DNA of 64,000 bases from Bradyrhizobium sp. WD16 (GTDB lineage Bacteria > Pseudomonadota > Alphaproteobacteria > Rhizobiales > Xanthobacteraceae): positions 3,895,501 through 3,959,500 of the forward strand of contig NZ_CP028908.1 of the NCBI RefSeq assembly GCF_024181725.1, read 5' to 3'. Below the pieces are notes generated by a model. It ran no database searches, was not told where the DNA came from, and worked only from the letters and a program-made list of their open reading frames with translations. Below are positions 1,730-64,000 of this stretch, piece after piece. The number at the start of each line of letters is the position of its first letter. The first letter of the stretch is position 1. A program made the position numbers and the translations under genes.

Positions 1730-1747
1730 CGCATGATGCCGGCGGTC

Positions 1748-1870
1748 CGATTCCAACGTTCGCATGCCATCGCAGCAGGCGTCTTTGCGCACATCGGAAT
1801 CGAGGGCCAATGGATTTGACATTCGCCTCGCGAGCCGCGTTCCGGTGGGTAGCGAATGTCGGATCCACCC
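1748..1870. repeat. Degenerate D-like and C-like palindromes between fliQ and fliR
   Basis: Two imperfect hairpins occupy the fliQ-fliR gap. The first (1748-1802) has arms beginning CGATTCCAACGTTCGCA and ending TGCGCACATCGGAATCG and resembles hairpin type D. The second (about 1811-1870) has arms GGATTTGACATTCGC (1812-1826) and GCGAATGTCGGATCC (1852-1866), matching at 13 of 15 positions, and resembles type C. They are far more diverged than the other copies and lack intact CTAG feet. I interpret them as old members of the same family. Confidence 0.55.
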
Positions 1871-1942: not shown

Positions 1943-2707
1943 ATGCGCGTCGATATTTCGCTTTTGCCGGCGCTCGCCGCGGCCTTCATCCTGGTATTCG
2001 CCCGGATCGGAGCCATGGTGATGCTGCTGCCGGGCTTCGGCGAGAGCAACATCCCGGTCCGTACCAAGCTCGCCATCGCGCTGGCGCTGACGCTGATCGT
2101 CCTGCCACTGCACCGGTCGGCCTATCATGTCGATATGACCTCGCTGACGTCGCTGCTCGTCCTGATGGTGCACGAGATCATCATCGGCATCGTGCTCGGC
2201 GCCACCGCGCGGGTGACGCTGTCGGCGCTCTCGGTGGCCGGATCGCTGATTGCCCAGCAGCTCGGGCTCGGATTCGTCACCACGGTGGATCCGACCCAGG
2301 GCCAGCAGGGGGCGCTGATCGGCAATTTCCTCACCATGCTCGGCCTCACGCTGCTGTTTGCGACCGACATGCATCATCTGGTGATCGCTGCGCTCGCCGA
2401 CAGCTACAAGGTGTTTGGCCCGGGCGAGGTGCTGCCGAGCGGCGACATCGCGGCGCTCGCGACCCGGGCCTTCGCCGCCGCATTCAAGATCGGCGTGCAG
2501 CTCTCGGCGCCGTTCATCGTGTTCGGGCTCGTCTTCAATGTCGGTCTTGGACTGCTGGCGCGGATGATGCCGCAGATGCAGGTCTATTTCGTCGGCGTTC
2601 CGCTCTCGATCCTCGGCGGCTTCCTGATTCTCGCGGTCGTTCTGACAACGATGATGGGCACCTTCCTGGACTATTTCGGCGAGATCATGCGTCAGCTCAC
2701 GCCGTGA
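1943..2707 (+). CDS. fliR: Flagellar biosynthesis protein FliR
   Basis: Inner-membrane export-gate subunit that works with FliP, FliQ and FlhB. The 254-residue product starts MRVDISLLPALAAAFILVF and has about six membrane segments. It carries the family signature GFGESNIPVRTKLAIALALT near residues 31-50 and the conserved loop VDPTQGQQGALIGNF. An open frame extends upstream to 1856, but that part is Arg-rich, non-conserved and overlaps the degenerate palindromes, so the ATG at 1943 is chosen. A block of repeats separates it from flhB, which is usually adjacent. Confidence 0.92.
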   Translation: MRVDISLLPALAAAFILVFARIGAMVMLLPGFGESNIPVRTKLAIALALTLIVLPLHRSAYHVDMTSLTSLLVLMVHEIIIGIVLGATARVTLSALSVAGSLIAQQLGLGFVTTVDPTQGQQGALIGNFLTMLGLTLLFATDMHHLVIAALADSYKVFGPGEVLPSGDIAALATRAFAAAFKIGVQLSAPFIVFGLVFNVGLGLLARMMPQMQVYFVGVPLSILGGFLILAVVLTTMMGTFLDYFGEIMRQLTP

Positions 2708-2718
2708 CCGCATCGTCT

Positions 2719-3089
2719 GGCGAGCGTGCGGCAAATGGGGCGGTCATTCGGAGACAGGACACCTAGTGCGGCGTCTCGCAATTGCCTTTCCCCTCTGCGG
2801 CAGGCCTCGTAGGCAATTGCGAGACATAAGCCGCACTAGTGTGGTGGATCTGACGCTCGTTTCAGTATTGCAGCGAGTTCTTCGAACGCGCGTCAGATCA
2901 AAAACCACACTAGAATCATAATGATGCTAGTGTCCGCTTGTTTCCAACGTTCGTATGAGCGCCTGCTGCAATGGGATACGAACGTTGGAAACAGGACACT
3001 AGTATTTTGATTTTGCAAGTGTCCTCACGTCTCCGAATGACCGTCGGAGCGTACGGCAAATGGGCGGTCATTCGGAGACAGGACACTTG
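2719..3089. repeat. Palindromic repeat cluster (half A, B, C, D, A) between fliR and flhB
   Basis: Elements in order: right half of an A hairpin (2719-2762), B (2763-2839), C (2836-2913), a 13-bp linker AATCATAATGATG, D (2927-3002), a 13-bp linker, and A (3016-3089). Neighbouring hairpins share or nearly share CTAG boundaries; the last A has mutated feet (CAAG and CTTG). B arms are GTCTCGCAATTGCCT, C arms GATCTGACGC, D arms TTTCCAACGTTCGTAT and A arms GTCTCCGAATGACCG, each followed by its complement after a loop. The cluster ends four bases before the flhB ATG and splits the flagellar gene series. Confidence 0.9.
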
Positions 3090-9091: not shown

Positions 9092-9258
9092 CTAGTGTCC
9101 TGTCTCCGAATTACCGCTCCATTTGCCTCATGCTCGCACGGTCATTCGGAGACATAAGGACACTAGCAAAATCAAAGTGCTAGTGTGGCTTATGTCTCGC
9201 AATTGCCTGCGAGCGGCTTGCCGCAAAGGCGGTAGGCAATTGCGAGACGCTACACTAG
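9092..9258. repeat. Palindromic repeat module A-13-B, inverted orientation
   Basis: Hairpin A (9092-9166) has arms TGTCTCCGAATTACCG and CGGTCATTCGGAGACA. The 13-bp linker CAAAATCAAAGTG (9167-9179) leads to hairpin B (9180-9258) with arms GTCTCGCAATTGCCT and AGGCAATTGCGAGAC. All four CTAG feet are intact. The rightmost CTAG supplies the TAG stop codon of the GFA-family gene on the minus strand. Confidence 0.92.
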
Positions 9259-9614
9259 CGGTTGCGGCCGTCGATCGGCAACATCGTCAATGACGACAGA
9301 TCGATGTGATCGATCGTCGCCACGTTGACCGCAATCACCTTGGTGCCATCCGGCTTTTCGCCGAGCGCAAACACATCCACCCCGCATTCGCTGCAGAGCT
9401 GGTGGTGGATCACCCGCTTGTTGAAGAGATACTCCTTGAGGCTTTCGGCACCGGCGCGAAGCTGGAACTGCGGCTCCGGCACGAAGGTGAAATGCAGGCC
9501 CTTCTTGGTGCAGATCGAGCAGTTGCAGGCGGTGACCATGTCAAGGTCGGTGGTGCATTCGTAACGCACCTGGCCGCAGTGACAGCCGCCGGTGAAGGTC
9601 CTGGCCTCGCCCAT
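9255..9614 (-). CDS. GFA family (CENP-V/glutathione-dependent formaldehyde-activating-like) protein
   Basis: The 119-residue zinc protein has the family cysteines: GGCHCGQVRYEC near the N-terminus, ACNCSICTKKG in the middle and QLCSECGVDVFALG near the C-terminus. Relatives are called glutathione-dependent formaldehyde-activating enzymes, but for most the reaction is unproven. The ATG at 9614 follows ACGGAGCGG; an open frame extending upstream is not conserved-looking. The stop codon TAG at 9255-9257 is the CTAG foot of repeat B, so the gene ends exactly where the repeat begins. Confidence 0.85.
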   Translation of the reverse strand: MGEARTFTGGCHCGQVRYECTTDLDMVTACNCSICTKKGLHFTFVPEPQFQLRAGAESLKEYLFNKRVIHHQLCSECGVDVFALGEKPDGTKVIAVNVATIDHIDLSSLTMLPIDGRNR

Positions 9615-9857
9615 CGTCCGCTCCGTTTCGAATTCTTTGCATCGTGATCTGAAACAGCCTTCAAGGCAATCCTGCGGCGGCATCTTGCTGCGCATGGAAC
9701 AGGCCGGCTTCCGTTTCCCCGGCAACCGTTTCGTCTACGACGCGATGGGACCGGGGCTGGGGCAAAGGCGATGGAACAGATCGACCAGCTCTCCGCCGAA
9801 CCGCCCGCGGCAGAGTGACCGCGTCCGGGCTTGTTGCGCCGGCGATGGCGGAATGGA

Positions 9858-10082: not shown

Positions 10083-10376
10083 GTTGGCTCACAAATCATT
10101 TCTGCCGAATTGAACCGGCGCTCGGCGTCCCGCGCATCTAGTGCGTGGATCTGACGCTCGTATCAGCATTGCAGCGAATTCGTCGTACGAGCGTCAGATC
10201 CAAAACCGCACTAGAATCATAATTATGCTAGTGTCCCTTTGGTTCTAACGTTCGTATGAGTGCTCGCTGCAAAGGGATACGAACGTTAGAACCGGGACAC
10301 TAGTGTGGCGTCTCGCAATTGCCTATGCCCTTCGCGGCAAGCCCCTGTAGGCAATTGCGAGACATAAGCCGCACTA

Positions 10377-11428
10377 GAGCAGACTCCGATCAAGGTGGAT
10401 CATATCCGCATGCGGCGAAGTAGTTTGCGCATTGGGCGGGCTTGAAGATGTCGGCGCAGGTTTCGAGGGCGCGCATCAGGGCGGCGACAGTTCGCTCGGC
10501 GATTTTGCGCAAATGCGCTTTCAGCTTGGAAAACGCCTTCTCGATCGGGTTCATGTCGGGGCTATAGGGCGGGAGGTAGAGCAGCTCGGCGCCCGCGGCC
10601 TCGATCAACTCCTTGACCCGCGGCCCCTTGTGGGCGGACAGATTGTCCATGACGACAACGTCGCCTTTCGTGAGGGTAGGAACGAGGCAGTGTTCCACCC
10701 AGTCCTCGAACAGGGCGGCGGTGATCGGACGATCATAGGTCTTCGCCGCCACGAGCCCGCGAAGGCGGATGCCGGCGACGAGCGTGACCGTCTTGTAATG
10801 GCCGTGCGGCACGCCGACGCGCAGCCGCCGCCCACGCCGGCAACGCCCGCCTTTGCGCGCCAAATTGGTCGAGGCGCCCGTTTCGTCGATGAAGACGAGC
10901 TTCTCGGGATCGAGATCGAGCTGTCGCTCGAACCATTCGAGGCGTTGCTTCAGGACGTCCGGCCGCTGCTGCTCCGAGGCGTGTGCGGTCTTTTTTTAAA
11001 CGTGACGCCATGACGGTCGAAGAAGCGCCACAGCACGGAACTCGAAAAATGCTCGCCGCAATTCCTGATCAGACGTTCCTGGATCTCCAGCAGGGTGACG
11101 TCCGGCGTGCGCCGGATCAGACCCATCAGATAGCCGTGATGGGCTTCGATGCGGCCGGAGCGGCGATCGCCTCCAGTCGGCTTCGGCGACATTTCTCCCG
11201 TCGTCTCGAATTGCTTGACCCAGCGCACGGCGCTCGCAATGCTGACTTCGAAACGCTTCGCCGCCGCATTGCGCGACAGCCCGCCCGAGACGACAGCCTC
11301 CACCACTCGTTTGCGAAGATCGTCGGAAAGCGCCATTCCAGCCGCCTCCATTCTGCGGCAGGAATCATGAATCAGATGTCAGCCGATTCGGGAATCCTGA
11401 TTCGATTCACATCGCTCGGAGCCTGCTC
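10377..11428 (-). mobile_element. IS630-family insertion sequence, 1052 bp
   Basis: The element is flanked by TA on both sides (10375-10376 and 11429-11430), the target duplication typical of the IS630/Tc1 group. Its terminal inverted repeats begin GAGCAGACTCCGATCAAGG and, read inwards from the right end, GAGCAGGCTCCGAGCGATG; 20 of the first 25 positions agree. It encodes one transposase split by a frameshift. The insertion point is a CTAG at the end of a B repeat. Removing the element and one TA restores the B-linker-A junction seen at 52811-52831. Confidence 0.93.
10390..11351 (-). CDS. IS630-family DDE transposase, two frames joined by a probable -1 frameshift
   Basis: The first frame (11351 to 10950) encodes a helix-turn-helix region (LRKRVVEAVVSGGLSRNAAA). 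The second (from about 10990 to 10390) encodes the catalytic domain. They meet at a run of seven A residues read TTT-AAA-AAA-AGA in the first frame. Slipping back one base continues as KKKTAHASEQQRPDV, the expected IS630 sequence. The catalytic triad is visible as FIDETGAST, VVMDNLSAHKG and YSPDMNPIEKAFSKLK. All key residues are present, so the element may still be active if frameshifting occurs. Confidence 0.88.
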
Positions 11429-11628
11429 TAGCTTTTTGATTTTGCTAGTGTCCTGATGTCTCCGAATGACCGTGCGAGGGTGAGGCAAATGAAGCGGTAA
11501 TTCGGAGACAGGACATAGCGCAATGATTAGGGCTGAAATGGTGCAAACCTGTGGCGCTGCACGGCCTGCGATTACCGCTTCATCACCATCGCCGTCTTTG
11601 CGGCATCGGGCCTGGAGAAACCGCAGTC

Positions 11629-25708: not shown

Positions 25709-25875
25709 CTAGTGTCCTGTCTCCGAATTACCGCTACGTTTGCCTCGCACTCGCACGGTTATTCGGAGACATAGGGACACTAGCAAAATCAAAGTGCTAG
25801 TATGGCTTATGTCTCGCAATTGCCTACGAGAGGGTTGCCGCGAAGGCGGTAGGCAATTGCGAGACGCCACACTAG
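25709..25875. repeat. Palindromic repeat module A-13-B, inverted orientation
   Basis: Hairpin A (25709-25783), 13-bp linker CAAAATCAAAGTG (25784-25796) and hairpin B (25797-25875), in the same arrangement and orientation as 9092-9258. All CTAG feet are intact. The last CTAG (25872-25875) provides the TAG stop codon of a 47-residue membrane-protein frame on the minus strand. Confidence 0.92.
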
Positions 25876-44255: not shown

Positions 44256-44404
44256 CTCGTGCGGTGGGTCTGACGCTCGTATCAGCATTGCAGCGAATTC
44301 GTCGGACGAGCGTCAGATCCAAAACCGCACTAGAATCATAGCTATACTAGTCTAGTGTTCCTTTGGTTCTAACGTTCGTATGAGTGCTCGCTGCAAAGGG
44401 ATAC
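44256..44404. repeat. Truncated palindromic repeat module C-13-D
   Basis: C (44256-44333) has a mutated left foot (CTCG) and arms TCTGACGCTCGTATC and GACGAGCGTCAGATCC. It is followed by the linker AATCATAGCTATA (44334-44346), then CTAG-T-CTAG and a D hairpin that stops after ATAC at 44404, losing its right arm. The module lies in the 485-base gap between the zeta-subunit gene and purC. The rest of that gap (44405-44702) shows no further repeat or gene and presumably holds the purC promoter. Confidence 0.85.
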
Positions 44405-46529: not shown

Positions 46530-46697
46530 CTAGTGTGGAGTCTCGCAATTGCCTACCGCCTTTGCGGCCAGTCTCTCGTAGGCAATCGCGACACATAAGC
46601 CACGCTAGCACTTTGATTTTGTTAGTGTCCTTTATGTCTCCGAATGACCGTGCGAGCGTGAAGCAAATGGGGCGGTAATTCGGAGACAGGACACTAG
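46530..46697. repeat. Palindromic repeat module B-13-A
   Basis: B (46530-46608), linker CACTTTGATTTTG (46609-46621) and A (46622-46697, left foot mutated to TTAG). The linker is the exact reverse complement of that at 9167-9179 and 25784-25796, so this module lies in the opposite orientation to those. It fills the gap between purQ and the convergent thioesterase gene, and its last CTAG supplies that gene's TAG stop. Confidence 0.92.
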
Positions 46698-47149
46698 CCC
46701 CGTCTCCTGACGCGCTTGATGGTGCCGGAGAAGTTCAGCAGCGGCCGGCCGTCGCAGGTCATCATCCCACGCAGGAAGATCAATGAGCCGCCGGCCCGGG
46801 TGACCTCTCCGGTAGCCTCGATCCGCTCGCCTTCCTTTGCCGCGTCGAGGAATTCGGCATTGAACGCCACCGTCACGGCGGGTCCCTGCAATTCGCTTCG
46901 GGCGAAGGCGAACAGGCAGTAGTCGGCGAAGGTCATGAAGCAGCCGCCATGGACGTGGCCAAGGCCGTTGAGGTGCTTACGGGTGACGCGAAACGCGCAG
47001 CGCGCCCGGCCGTTTTCTTCGGTCTGCCAGAACGGGCCGTTATTCGATTCGAAGGTGTCGCGGGTCCAGGTGGTCCAGCCGGCGAACTCGCCGTCGGTGG
47101 CGATGACGGTCCCCGGGCGTTCGAATGGGGCGGGTGGAACGGCGGTCAC
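46694..47149 (-). CDS. PaaI-like hotdog-fold thioesterase
   Basis: The 151-residue product starts at GTG 47149, preceded by AAGGAGAG. It has the hotdog core HLNGLGHVHGGCFMTFADYC, FARSELQGPAVTVAFNAEFL and EATGEVTRAGGSLIFLRGMM. HVHGG is the conserved turn of PaaI/YbgC-type acyl-CoA thioesterases. Substrate is unknown. It ends in TAG contributed by an A repeat. The gene sits between purQ and purL on the opposite strand, so the purine genes are not one uninterrupted operon. Confidence 0.85.
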   Translation of the reverse strand: MTAVPPAPFERPGTVIATDGEFAGWTTWTRDTFESNNGPFWQTEENGRARCAFRVTRKHLNGLGHVHGGCFMTFADYCLFAFARSELQGPAVTVAFNAEFLDAAKEGERIEATGEVTRAGGSLIFLRGMMTCDGRPLLNFSGTIKRVRRRG

Positions 47150-47390
47150 GAGGCTCTCCTTGGAACTATGTCGGGCGCCTCTTACCGGCAGGGGTGACGC
47201 GGCGCAAACGCCATCCGGTCGGGCCGTCCCCAGATTTGCCGCCCCCCGGCAAAACGGGGCACACAAAGCCCTTTTCCGGCCCCTTTGATCTCCTTAAAGA
47301 GGGATGGCGCTTTTTGATTTTGACGCGTTTTCCCCAAGGGGGCGCCCTTCCTCGCCTCTTTGCGACAACGCCCGCGGACAACCGATTCCG

Positions 47391-52503: not shown

Positions 52504-52902
52504 CTGGTGCGGTGTCTCGCAATTGCCTACAGGGGGCTGCCGCAGAGGGGGTAGACAATTGCGAGACATAAGCTGCACCAGTGCGGTGGATCTGACGCTC
52601 GTATTAGCATTGCAGCGAATTCGTCGTATCCGCGTCAGATCAAAAACCGCAATAGAATCATAACTATACTGTGTCCCTTTGGTTCCAACGTTCGTATGAG
52701 TGCTCGCTGCAAAGGGACACGAACGTACCGGGACACTAGTGTGGCGTTTCGCAATTGCCTACTGCCTTTGCGGCAAGCCTCTCGTAGGCAATTGCGAGAC
52801 ATAAGCCGCACTAGCTTTTTGATTTTGCTAGTGTCCTGATGTCTCCGAATTACAGTGCGAGGGTGAGGCAAATGAAGCGGTAATTCGGAGACAGGACACT
52901 AG
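52504..52902. repeat. Longest palindromic repeat cluster: B, C-13-D, B-13-A
   Basis: Order: B (52504-52581, feet mutated to CTGG and CCAG), C (52578-52655), linker AATCATAACTATA (52656-52668), D (52669-52739, left foot reduced and right arm shortened), B (52736-52814), linker CTTTTTGATTTTG (52815-52827) and A (52828-52902). The part from C to A is the same two-module array as at 10138-11518 but without the IS630. The junction at 52811-52831 therefore shows the empty insertion site. The last CTAG gives the TAG stop of the DUF427 gene. Together with the acyltransferase upstream region it fills the 475-base gap. Confidence 0.93.
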
Positions 52903-53261
52903 TCCGCCGTTTCCTCGATCTTGACCCGGTCGGGATAAAAGGCGAGGTGACCGGCAATGGCGGCGACGGCGGGGTAGGGGCGCTCGTAGCTCCAGATCGC
53001 GTCGGCGATCGCGTGGCTGCCGGCCTTGACGCTGAAATAGCTGGCATCGCCCTTGTAAGGGCAGTGCGTCACATGGGCGCCGGGCTCGAACTGAGTCATC
53101 GCCGCATCCTCGCGCGGAATGTAGTGCACCGGCGGGTAATTTGCCTCTCGGAGGGTCAAGGTCCGTCGGCTATCGGCGAGGCTGAGGCCGCCAAGGCTGA
53201 CGCGAATCCGGCGCGGATTGGCTTCAATGGTGATCGGGTGGTCGGGTCCTGGTGTTTTCAT
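52899..53261 (-). CDS. DUF427 family protein
   Basis: The 120-residue product contains the DUF427 features RIRVSLGGLSLADSRRTLTL, YPPVHYIPREDAAM, THCPYKGDASYFSVKAG and AIWSYERPYPAVAAIAGHLAFYP-type sequence. The family folds as a small beta barrel of unknown biochemical role. The ATG at 53261 matches relatives; the longer frame to 53621 overlaps bolA. Its TAG stop at 52899-52901 is the foot of an A repeat. It is divergent from bolA. Confidence 0.85.
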   Translation of the reverse strand: MKTPGPDHPITIEANPRRIRVSLGGLSLADSRRTLTLREANYPPVHYIPREDAAMTQFEPGAHVTHCPYKGDASYFSVKAGSHAIADAIWSYERPYPAVAAIAGHLAFYPDRVKIEETAD

Positions 53262-53420
53262 CGAAGGTGCCCCGTGCGGAAGTCCGGTCGAATTCCCAGC
53301 ACACCGTCGAAGCATGGCTGACGGCGGCCGGGAAGAGATGACGAGATGGGGCCAAAGGGCTAGAACTTCAACCAAGGTGGCAACCGCCGCGAATCGAGAT
53401 GCAAACCGGAGACCGTTCAG

Positions 53421-53657
53421 ATGCCGATGGATGCGCGGGAGATCGAGGCCATGATCAAGGCCGCCATTCCCGATGCCGAAGTCACCATTCGCGATCTCGC
53501 CGGCGACGGCGATCATTATGCCGCGACCGTGATCTCTGAGTCGTTCCGCGGCAAATCGCGTGTGCAGCAGCACCAGATCGTTTATCAGGCGCTCAAGGGC
53601 CAGATGGGCGGGGTGCTGCACGCCCTCGCGCTACAGACGGGCGCGCCGGCGGCCTGA
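53421..53657 (+). CDS. bolA: BolA family protein
   Basis: The 78-residue BolA/IbaG-type protein starts MPMDAREIEAMIKAAIPDAE and has the class signature SFRGKSRVQQHQIVYQALKG, with His in the position used for Fe-S ligation with monothiol glutaredoxin. BolA and GrxD work together in iron-sulfur cluster handling and iron sensing. In relatives purL, bolA and grxD are close together. Here egtD and egtB lie between bolA and grxD on the other strand. Confidence 0.93.
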   Translation: MPMDAREIEAMIKAAIPDAEVTIRDLAGDGDHYAATVISESFRGKSRVQQHQIVYQALKGQMGGVLHALALQTGAPAA

Positions 53658-63618: not shown

Positions 63619-64000
63619 TCAGACAAGGGCGCCGGGTCGTCCCGGCAGGGGCTCCTTGTTCGCCAGGGTCGTCCGTGGCGGAGCGGAAGGGCGCGGCGCC
63701 ATGGCGACGCGGCGCGGGAAGATTTCGAGGTCGCGGGAAATGGTGGCGCCGTAGCGCTCGCGGTCGGCGGGCCAATCACGCTTGCGTTCGAGGGCGATGA
63801 CGCGGGTGGCAAGGCTAAAAGCTTCGCTGAGGTCATGGGTGACCATCACCACGGTCAGCTTGGTTTCATTCCACAGCCGCCGCATCAGGAGGTGGATGTC
63901 GGCCCTGATGCCGGGGTCGAGCGCGCCGAAGGGTTCGTCGAGCAGCAGGATCTTCGGTCGGCGAAACACTGCCTGGGCGAGGGCGAGGCGCTGCTGCATG
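63619..64000 (-). CDS. ABC transporter ATP-binding protein (N-terminus beyond window)
   Basis: Only the last 127 residues or so are present; the frame runs off the window edge. They include the signature region MQQRLALAQAVFRRPKILLL, DEPFGALDPGIRADIHLLM (Walker B) and VVMVTHDLSEAFSLATRVI (H-loop). This matches nitrate/taurine/SsuB-type importer ATPases. Together with permease and binding-protein genes outside the window it probably imports guanidine, urea or a precursor. It ends 13 bases before the DUF1989 gene, so it is in the same operon. Confidence 0.88.
   Translation of the reverse strand, partial: MQQRLALAQAVFRRPKILLLDEPFGALDPGIRADIHLLMRRLWNETKLTVVMVTHDLSEAFSLATRVIALERKRDWPADRERYGATISRDLEIFPRRVAMAPRPSAPPRTTLANKEPLPGRPGALV

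Follow-up and report, generated by a model that had tools for sequence, protein, structure and literature searches.

Paired CTAG-bounded hairpins of Bradyrhizobium sp. WD16 form modules that are probably non-autonomous IS630-type MITEs

The window, that is, the whole 64-kb stretch of Bradyrhizobium sp. WD16 DNA that was analysed, contains 23 hairpins or hairpin fragments as detected by profile search (nhmmer), and these are listed in Table 1. A sequence-only reading of this DNA had described about 20 copies of four palindromes (A, B, C and D) in seven clusters, and the profile search places the hairpins at the clusters that it had named; the arms, the CTAG feet and the 13-bp linkers are likewise as it had described them. 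Window 2691-3089 is a C-D module nested in a B-A module, and the cluster at 10138-11518 consists of C, D and B followed by an IS630 element of 1058 bp, a linker and A. The nested cluster (2712-3087) is flanked by genes of two flagellar export families, FliR and FlhB. At three places the CTAG of a B-A module supplies the TAG stop of an ORF, namely at 9255 (ORF 9255-9725, GFA domain), at 46694 (thioesterase-like ORF 46694-47266) and at 52899 (DUF427 ORF 52899-53621). An Rfam search of the whole window placed no hairpin above the gathering threshold (best 19 bits against 99, at 52829-52901), and two riboswitches are the only matches over threshold.

Table 1. Hairpins, modules and other features located in the 64-kb window
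Feature	Position	Strand	Remarks
Weak D-like fragment	1747..1806	-	33.6 bits, profile search
Degenerate partial A hairpin	2712..2762	+	nhmmer 37.9 bits
B hairpin	2763..2839	+	first half of the B-A module that a C-D module interrupts
C-D module	2836..3002	+	C 2836-2913, linker 2914-2926, D 2927-3002; occupies the inner CTAG of the surrounding B-A module
A hairpin	3018..3087	+	other half of the interrupted B-A module; B-A type 13-bp linker just upstream
Complete B-A module	9092..9258	-	167 bp
Complete C-D module	10138..10303	+
B hairpin	10300..10377	+	CTAG in common with D; first half of the IS630-split B-A module
IS630-family element I1	10374..11431	-	1058 bp including both CTAGs, at inner CTAG of the B-A module; 15 genome copies
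A hairpin	11445..11515	+	completes the split B-A module; its right foot is degenerate
Complete B-A module	25709..25875	-
Glycine riboswitch RF00504	33529..33617	-	63.4 bits
C-D module with truncated D	44256..44404	+
Complete B-A module	46530..46697	+
Degenerate B-type hairpin	52504..52572	.	near-palindrome, strand ambiguous; 46.6 bits
C-D module, partly degenerate	52578..52739	+	C 52580-52655, D 52671-52739
Complete B-A module	52736..52902	+	B 52736-52814, linker 52815-52827, A 52828-52902; CTAG in common with D
Guanidine-II riboswitch (mini-ykkC)	63632..63680	-	40.6 bits

When the arms are read in register, A is an inverted and diverged B, and D is an inverted and diverged C; the likeness pointed out earlier between A and B, and between C and D, is present in the form of an inverted homology. 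Each module is a quasi-palindrome made of two hairpins, and B-13 bp-A and C-13 bp-D are sister modules of which the four hairpins are the halves. Their common design is a long hairpin, a 13-nt A/T-rich linker and a short hairpin with four CTAGs, 167 bp in total by consensus, and each stem of the module hairpins carries a one-sided bulge. The outer foot reads CTAG followed by T-N4-YG with the arm directly attached, while the inner feet of B-A have 3-4 extra bases between foot and arm which are absent from the outer feet.

Within the assembly of 5,945,179 bp, the A-arm pattern with one mismatch allowed is found 377 times on the forward and 376 times on the reverse strand as compared to 0 and 2 for the reversed control. 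Such counts are far above those of the control and therefore not due to chance, and correspond to about 376 A hairpins in the genome. A sample of 1.664 Mb, consisting of the window and 80 nearly evenly placed 20-kb stretches (27% of the genome, 28% with the window), contains 406 hairpins (A 120, B 116, C 95 and D 75) that fall into 181 clusters; 81 B-A and 40 C-D modules are among them. Extrapolation from the 406 hairpins in 28% indicates more than 1000 in the genome, for which a unit and a likely mover are now proposed. Among the 225 neighbour pairs lying at most 60 bp apart, 140 are exactly 13 bp apart and 65 have one CTAG in common, so that 205 of the 225 show exact junctions and the pieces are not combined at random. 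The 13-bp spacing is exact in 77 of 78 B-A and 29 of 37 C-D cases, in agreement with fixed modules; the claim that the hairpins are always ordered in this manner is too strong, because nesting and hybrids such as C-linker-A occur. Adjacency, nesting or exchange at a CTAG can account for most of the remaining orders, and tandem arrays reach up to four B-A units (L095).

The exact A arm was present in only three of 296 genomes of the family, namely this genome and two others with a single arm each. Since the arms diverge while the form stays, as seen with the covariance model described below, this divergence is the suggested reason for the rarity of the exact arm. A search of plasmids for the B-A module gave no match, and a scan of viral contigs with one protein of the window gave nothing. 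A further CTAG-footed hairpin type, different from A-D and with arms TTTCCGAAGTTCG, was met once at L046:10271-10345.

Eight precise insertions of one module into another at its inner CTAG are observed, in both directions (L096, L079, L077, L040 twice, L076, L045 at 3926 and window 2691). In addition, an empty site could be identified in a related genus: genome G488 carries a single CTAG between the same flanks where L165 of G441 and its orthologue in G467 carry a module. The exact junctions, the nesting and the empty site together indicate that modules move as units into CTAG. At outer ends with no adjoining hairpin, CTAG is present in 46 of 51 and 46 of 52 cases for B-A, and the more decayed C-D has it in 13 of 24 and 20 of 27. 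A TA duplication is seen only for the IS630 element I1 (two copies, with CTAA and TTAA targets, L124 and L125), and the module data are compatible with either TA or CTAG as the duplicated sequence.

CTAG itself is scarce in this genome. The 1.664-Mb sample contains 842 copies, whereas its composition predicts about 5,390, and 569 of the 842 are part of hairpins; CTAG is thus about 6-fold rarer than predicted overall and about 20-fold rarer outside hairpins. A hairpin adjoins the CTAG of 27 of the 34 resident IS630 copies, which is close to the share expected from the supply of CTAG (68%) and does not require any special attraction. The clustering is explained by modules and IS630 elements having one rare target in common.

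At 44 of 231 intact outer module borders, the TAG serves as the stop of an open frame of 200 codons or more, as compared to 13 and 12 in the other frames; no excess of this kind is seen for the CTAGs outside hairpins (54, 72 and 37 of 546). This excess is accounted for by the fact that an insertion at a CTAG overlapping a TAG stop leaves the stop intact, which makes it a safe place. For annotation, it means that module borders often supply the stop codon of a gene.

Among 397 genomes of the order, a covariance model built from 18 B-A modules detected modules in 35, belonging to 22 of 142 genera; as seven candidates were scored per genome, 35 is a lower bound. The 107 hits of this model in other genomes and the two consensus modules of this genome made up a set of 109, of which 100 from 32 genomes could be dissected; nine were dropped since a foot was not placeable, among them the module of G399 that is the partner in an 18 of 19 match described below. 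The 100 dissected modules are 163-170 nt in total length, and their linker is 13 nt long in 87 and 11-14 nt in all. The inner spacer is 3 or 4 nt at 194 of 200 feet, and CTAG is intact at each of the four feet in 83-86 of the 100 modules. The arms vary between subfamilies, with 52 and 55 distinct outer feet, and an arm is 95.5% identical to its own partner and 67% to the arm of the other hairpin. In an alignment of 16 hairpins, 10 of 19 pairs are changed on both sides, and the covariation score is 0.314, whereas shuffles give 0.142 and sliding gives at most 0.103; one of five covariation measures, the count of further pair types, does not rise above the shuffled values (160 of 500 as high). 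As the rows of the alignment are related, this covariation is taken as support and not as proof.

The two outer ends of a module follow an unexpected rule. Foot letters 1-3 are equal at the two ends in 97, 83 and 71 of the 100 modules, while letters 4 and 5 of one end are the complement of those of the other in 93 and 89 and at the same time differ between lineages. The combinations at these two letters are CC/GG (44), TC/AG (39), CC/GA (9), TC/GG (4) and others (4). Both positions are complementary in 53 of 70 distinct foot pairs as compared to 30.0 after permutation (0 of 10,000 as high), a comparison whose support is overstated by the kinship of the modules. The foot that resembles an IS end is the pyrimidine foot. 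In minimum-energy RNA folds, the left outer arm is paired inside its own hairpin in 28 of 29 modules. We read the rule at positions 4-5, from the pattern of letters, as a possible block to cross-pairing of the two hairpins or as a possible end-identity code. The conserved form as a whole, with its 13-nt linker, inner spacer and opposed foot letters, provides a testable rule for the way in which a very short DNA transposon displays its ends.

Three multicopy IS630 families reside in this genome, I1 with 15, I2 with 10 and I3 with nine copies. I3 is 1184 bp long, its nine copies are 99.9-100% identical to the reference copy and its protein is an IS630 transposase (NCBIfam IS630, 254 bits against a cut-off of 100). 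A search for a helper transposase with matching ends, either IS630-like or a REP-associated tyrosine transposase, had been proposed from the sequence, and it leads to I3, the ends of which match the outer feet of B at 14 and 15 of 20 positions and those of A at 12 and 16 of 20; the tyrosine transposase has no association with the modules. The inner feet of B and A match I3 at 6-8 of 20 positions, which is low because 3-4 bases separate foot from arm. The outer feet of C and D are less clear, with 7-12 of 20 for I3 and, in the case of D, 9-10 for I2. Among 544 CTAG flanks outside hairpins, 14 or more of 20 matches to B were reached only by I3 itself and one decayed B. The two other resident families were considered as movers and rejected, since the ends of I1 do not match and those of I2 match weakly (4-7 of 20 for both with the B-A outer feet; 11-12 of 19 for I2 with modules of other genomes).

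The same comparison was extended to IS870-like relatives of I3 and to other IS630 elements. The ends of the plasmid IS870-like elements were chosen by CTAG and best inverted repeat without consulting the modules; 14 of 17 plasmid IS630 loci were scored, whereas ISBmu8 and the R. rhododendri and B. barranii loci were dropped for want of a usable end pair. Out of 22 genomic IS630 loci, seven gave ends that were used (the I3-like G024, G435, G121 and G073, and the others G043, G137 and G672), while 15 gave none or none at CTAG. The right ends of the R. johnstonii and S. meliloti 1132 elements are identical to the outer feet of the G659 and G546 modules, respectively, at 19 of 19 positions, and the right end of the B. 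guangdongense element matches the outer foot of the G399 module at 18 of 19. The G024 and G121 elements, 39-46% alike to I3, match modules of other genomes at 15-17 of 19. An outer YY foot fits better than any inner foot for 32 of 38 IS870-like ends as compared to 1 of 10 other IS630 ends. Protein likeness to I3 agrees with this grouping, being 38-72% over long stretches for those IS870-like elements that were tested (44% for a plasmid relative annotated IS870), 27% for I2, and absent or short for I1, G043, G137 and G672. The exceptions to the outer-foot fit are mostly left ends: those of A. vitis IS870, ISAzs31, R. leguminosarum and M. huakuii have an outer fit no or little better than the inner one. 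For the G435 element, the fit to outer feet is poor (at best 10 and 11 of 19), and the left end of this element does better with an inner foot (13).

The presence of IS630 elements does not track the presence of modules. An IS630 transposase over the NCBIfam cut-off is found in 12 of 34 other carrier genomes as compared to 9 of 18 genomes without a detected module, the latter being the first listed and not a random choice, and possibly including false negatives. A relative of I3 at E 1e-40 is present in 5 of the 34 other carriers; at E 1e-30, only G073 (38%) among eight other genomes has one. G441 carries many module pieces, some of them 98-99% alike, yet no IS630 over the cut-off, and its mover may have been lost, may reside on a plasmid or may belong to another family. 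If the modules were simple deletion derivatives of an IS, their two ends should be alike, whereas they have one IS-like foot and another which differs at positions 4-5.

From these sequence comparisons we consider, with a probability of roughly 0.8, that the hairpins are the halves of non-autonomous IS630-type MITEs in which the whole module is mobile and is moved by an IS870-like transposase, here most likely that of I3. The sequence-only reading had correctly called the hairpins a two-hairpin mobile repeat and had left it as BIME-like or MITE-like; the latter, with an IS630-type helper, is supported by the matching ends, the CTAG target, the empty site and the nesting, whereas the former does not hold beyond the look. 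The IS870-like transposase would act in trans by recognising the two outer feet of the module, excising it and pasting it at the TA of a CTAG, with the TA presumably being duplicated, so that a CTAG is left at both ends. The inner spacer of 3-4 bases would put the inner feet out of register and thereby keep them from acting as ends. As new copies bring new CTAGs with them, modules and IS630 elements would pile into one another while genes are spared. In a reading that we hold to be unlikely, the paired hairpins would be a working part of transposition. They would be orthogonal, each still pairing with itself while the opposed letters at foot positions 4-5 prevent pairing with the other, and, formed as cruciforms or as single-strand folds, they might let an IS870-like transposase tell left from right ends. 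If this were true, only proper left-right pairs would be joined in crowded nested arrays. To our knowledge, no such end-identity code is known for IS630 or Tc1/mariner elements.

MITEs of this kind could have been moved in most lineages by a transposase that is not IS870-like, the likeness of ends reflecting a grammar common to a wider group. We regard this as improbable: although 22 of the 34 other carriers have no IS630 over the cut-off, the ends of I2 are also weakly alike and CTAG/YTAA targets recur in a MITE assigned to 'IS5?' in the available part of its description (PMC3189936), matches of 18-19 of 19 were found to IS870-like ends of three rhizobial or bradyrhizobial plasmids, and none so high was seen for the other IS630 ends tried. 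Very unlikely in our judgement is a REP/BIME-like origin, in which the single hairpins would be REPs and their pairs would be mobilised, in single-stranded form, by a tyrosine transposase of the REP-associated type (HUH, Y1). Two inverted homologous hairpins, a one-sided bulge, fixed tetranucleotide feet, a short linker and tandem arrays would all be in keeping with it, and one Y1 gene is present here (226-codon frame, L119:1186-1863 on the minus strand, at 55.8 kb of the genome) with a decayed A hairpin about 120 bp away. This local Y1 scores 74 bits, however, below the NCBIfam cut-off of 80, and adjoins a different short repeat, two copies of GGTGACAGTGCACTTAATTCC lying between the gene and the decayed hairpin, which is perhaps the Y1 gene's own repeat. 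Y1 genes occur in 7 of 35 module-bearing genomes as compared to 6 of 18 without a detected module, and the carriers G441 and G387 have no Y1 at E 1e-6. Moreover, the modules have CTAG at both feet in contrast to the one-sided foot of a REP, and the match of the outer feet to IS630 ends would be left unexplained.

Least probable of all appears to be a host function, in which the hairpins are kept as mRNA 3' ends, RNA processing sites or DNA-binding sites and their spread is secondary. The self-complementarity kept across lineages and the excess of stop codons at module borders would agree with such a role, but the latter follows from surviving insertions into CTAG at TAG stops. Rfam gives no hairpin match above gathering, and pieces of G441-type modules occur in 7 of 14 genomes of one genus with 4 to at least about 30 in each, the best 31 candidates per genome being scored.

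The MITE reading places the modules beside several known systems. RUP of Streptococcus pneumoniae is, in the part of the source available, a non-coding repeat of 107 bp with 110 copies in the genome studied, which has ends like IS630-Spn1 and is proposed to be mobilised in trans (PMC3049150). On that description RUP resembles the modules as a short non-coding repeat whose ends are like those of a resident IS630-family element, but is one unit, whereas the modules come in two sister types, each made of two hairpins and a 13-nt linker, and show strict CTAG, nesting and a form that is kept across many genera of an order. The IS870-like elements of rhizobia and relatives have CTAG at both ends like the modules and match their outer feet at up to 19 of 19 positions, and in the A. 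vitis IS870 copy the annotated CDS ends at the terminal CTAG. They differ from the modules in being 1.14-1.21 kb long with a transposase and in that, for 14 of 19 elements, positions 4-5 agree between both ends, and no paired hairpins were noted in them. REP/BIME repeats with their RAYT consist of bulged hairpins that stand in inverted pairs, are joined by a short linker and form arrays, and in these respects the modules are like them; REPs have a conserved GTAG/GGAG-type foot on one side. The modules are unlike them in the lack of a Y1 link, in CTAG on both feet and in ends that fit IS630. IS711 is not an IS630 element. It is reported to land preferentially in Bru-RS, palindromic repeats of 103-105 bp in Brucella, with a TA-centred target (PMC2266754, PMC2267715). 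Bru-RS thus also are palindromic repeats of an alphaproteobacterium with a TA-centred IS target, and are set apart from the 167-bp modules by their size and by the family of their IS. MITEPsy1 of Pseudomonas syringae, a bacterial MITE at CTAG or YTAA like the modules, has been shown to transpose and has ends nearly identical to ISPsy2 ('IS5?'), but is a single unit of 100 nt for which the portion of the paper available describes no hairpin pair (PMC3189936). For ISY100, a TA duplication is given, and a CTAG preference of IS630 is named in the reference list, in the part of the paper at hand (PMC2170065).

A search of open-access literature, which leaves most subscription journals uncovered, gave no description of the module form, and the terms RIME, BIME and MITE led to nothing closer. 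Six arm strings searched in open-access text brought up no repeat paper among the matches listed, as judged by title and start of the abstract. A short IS630-related repeat is an already known kind, represented by RUP, whereas the two-hairpin CTAG module form appears to be undescribed in the open-access literature. On a plasmid of Roseibium algicola (L286), a module of the G441 subfamily abuts the TAG stop of a gene for an SDR oxidoreductase, and nine Roseibium/Labrenzia plasmids carry a full module under a gene named SDR oxidoreductase.
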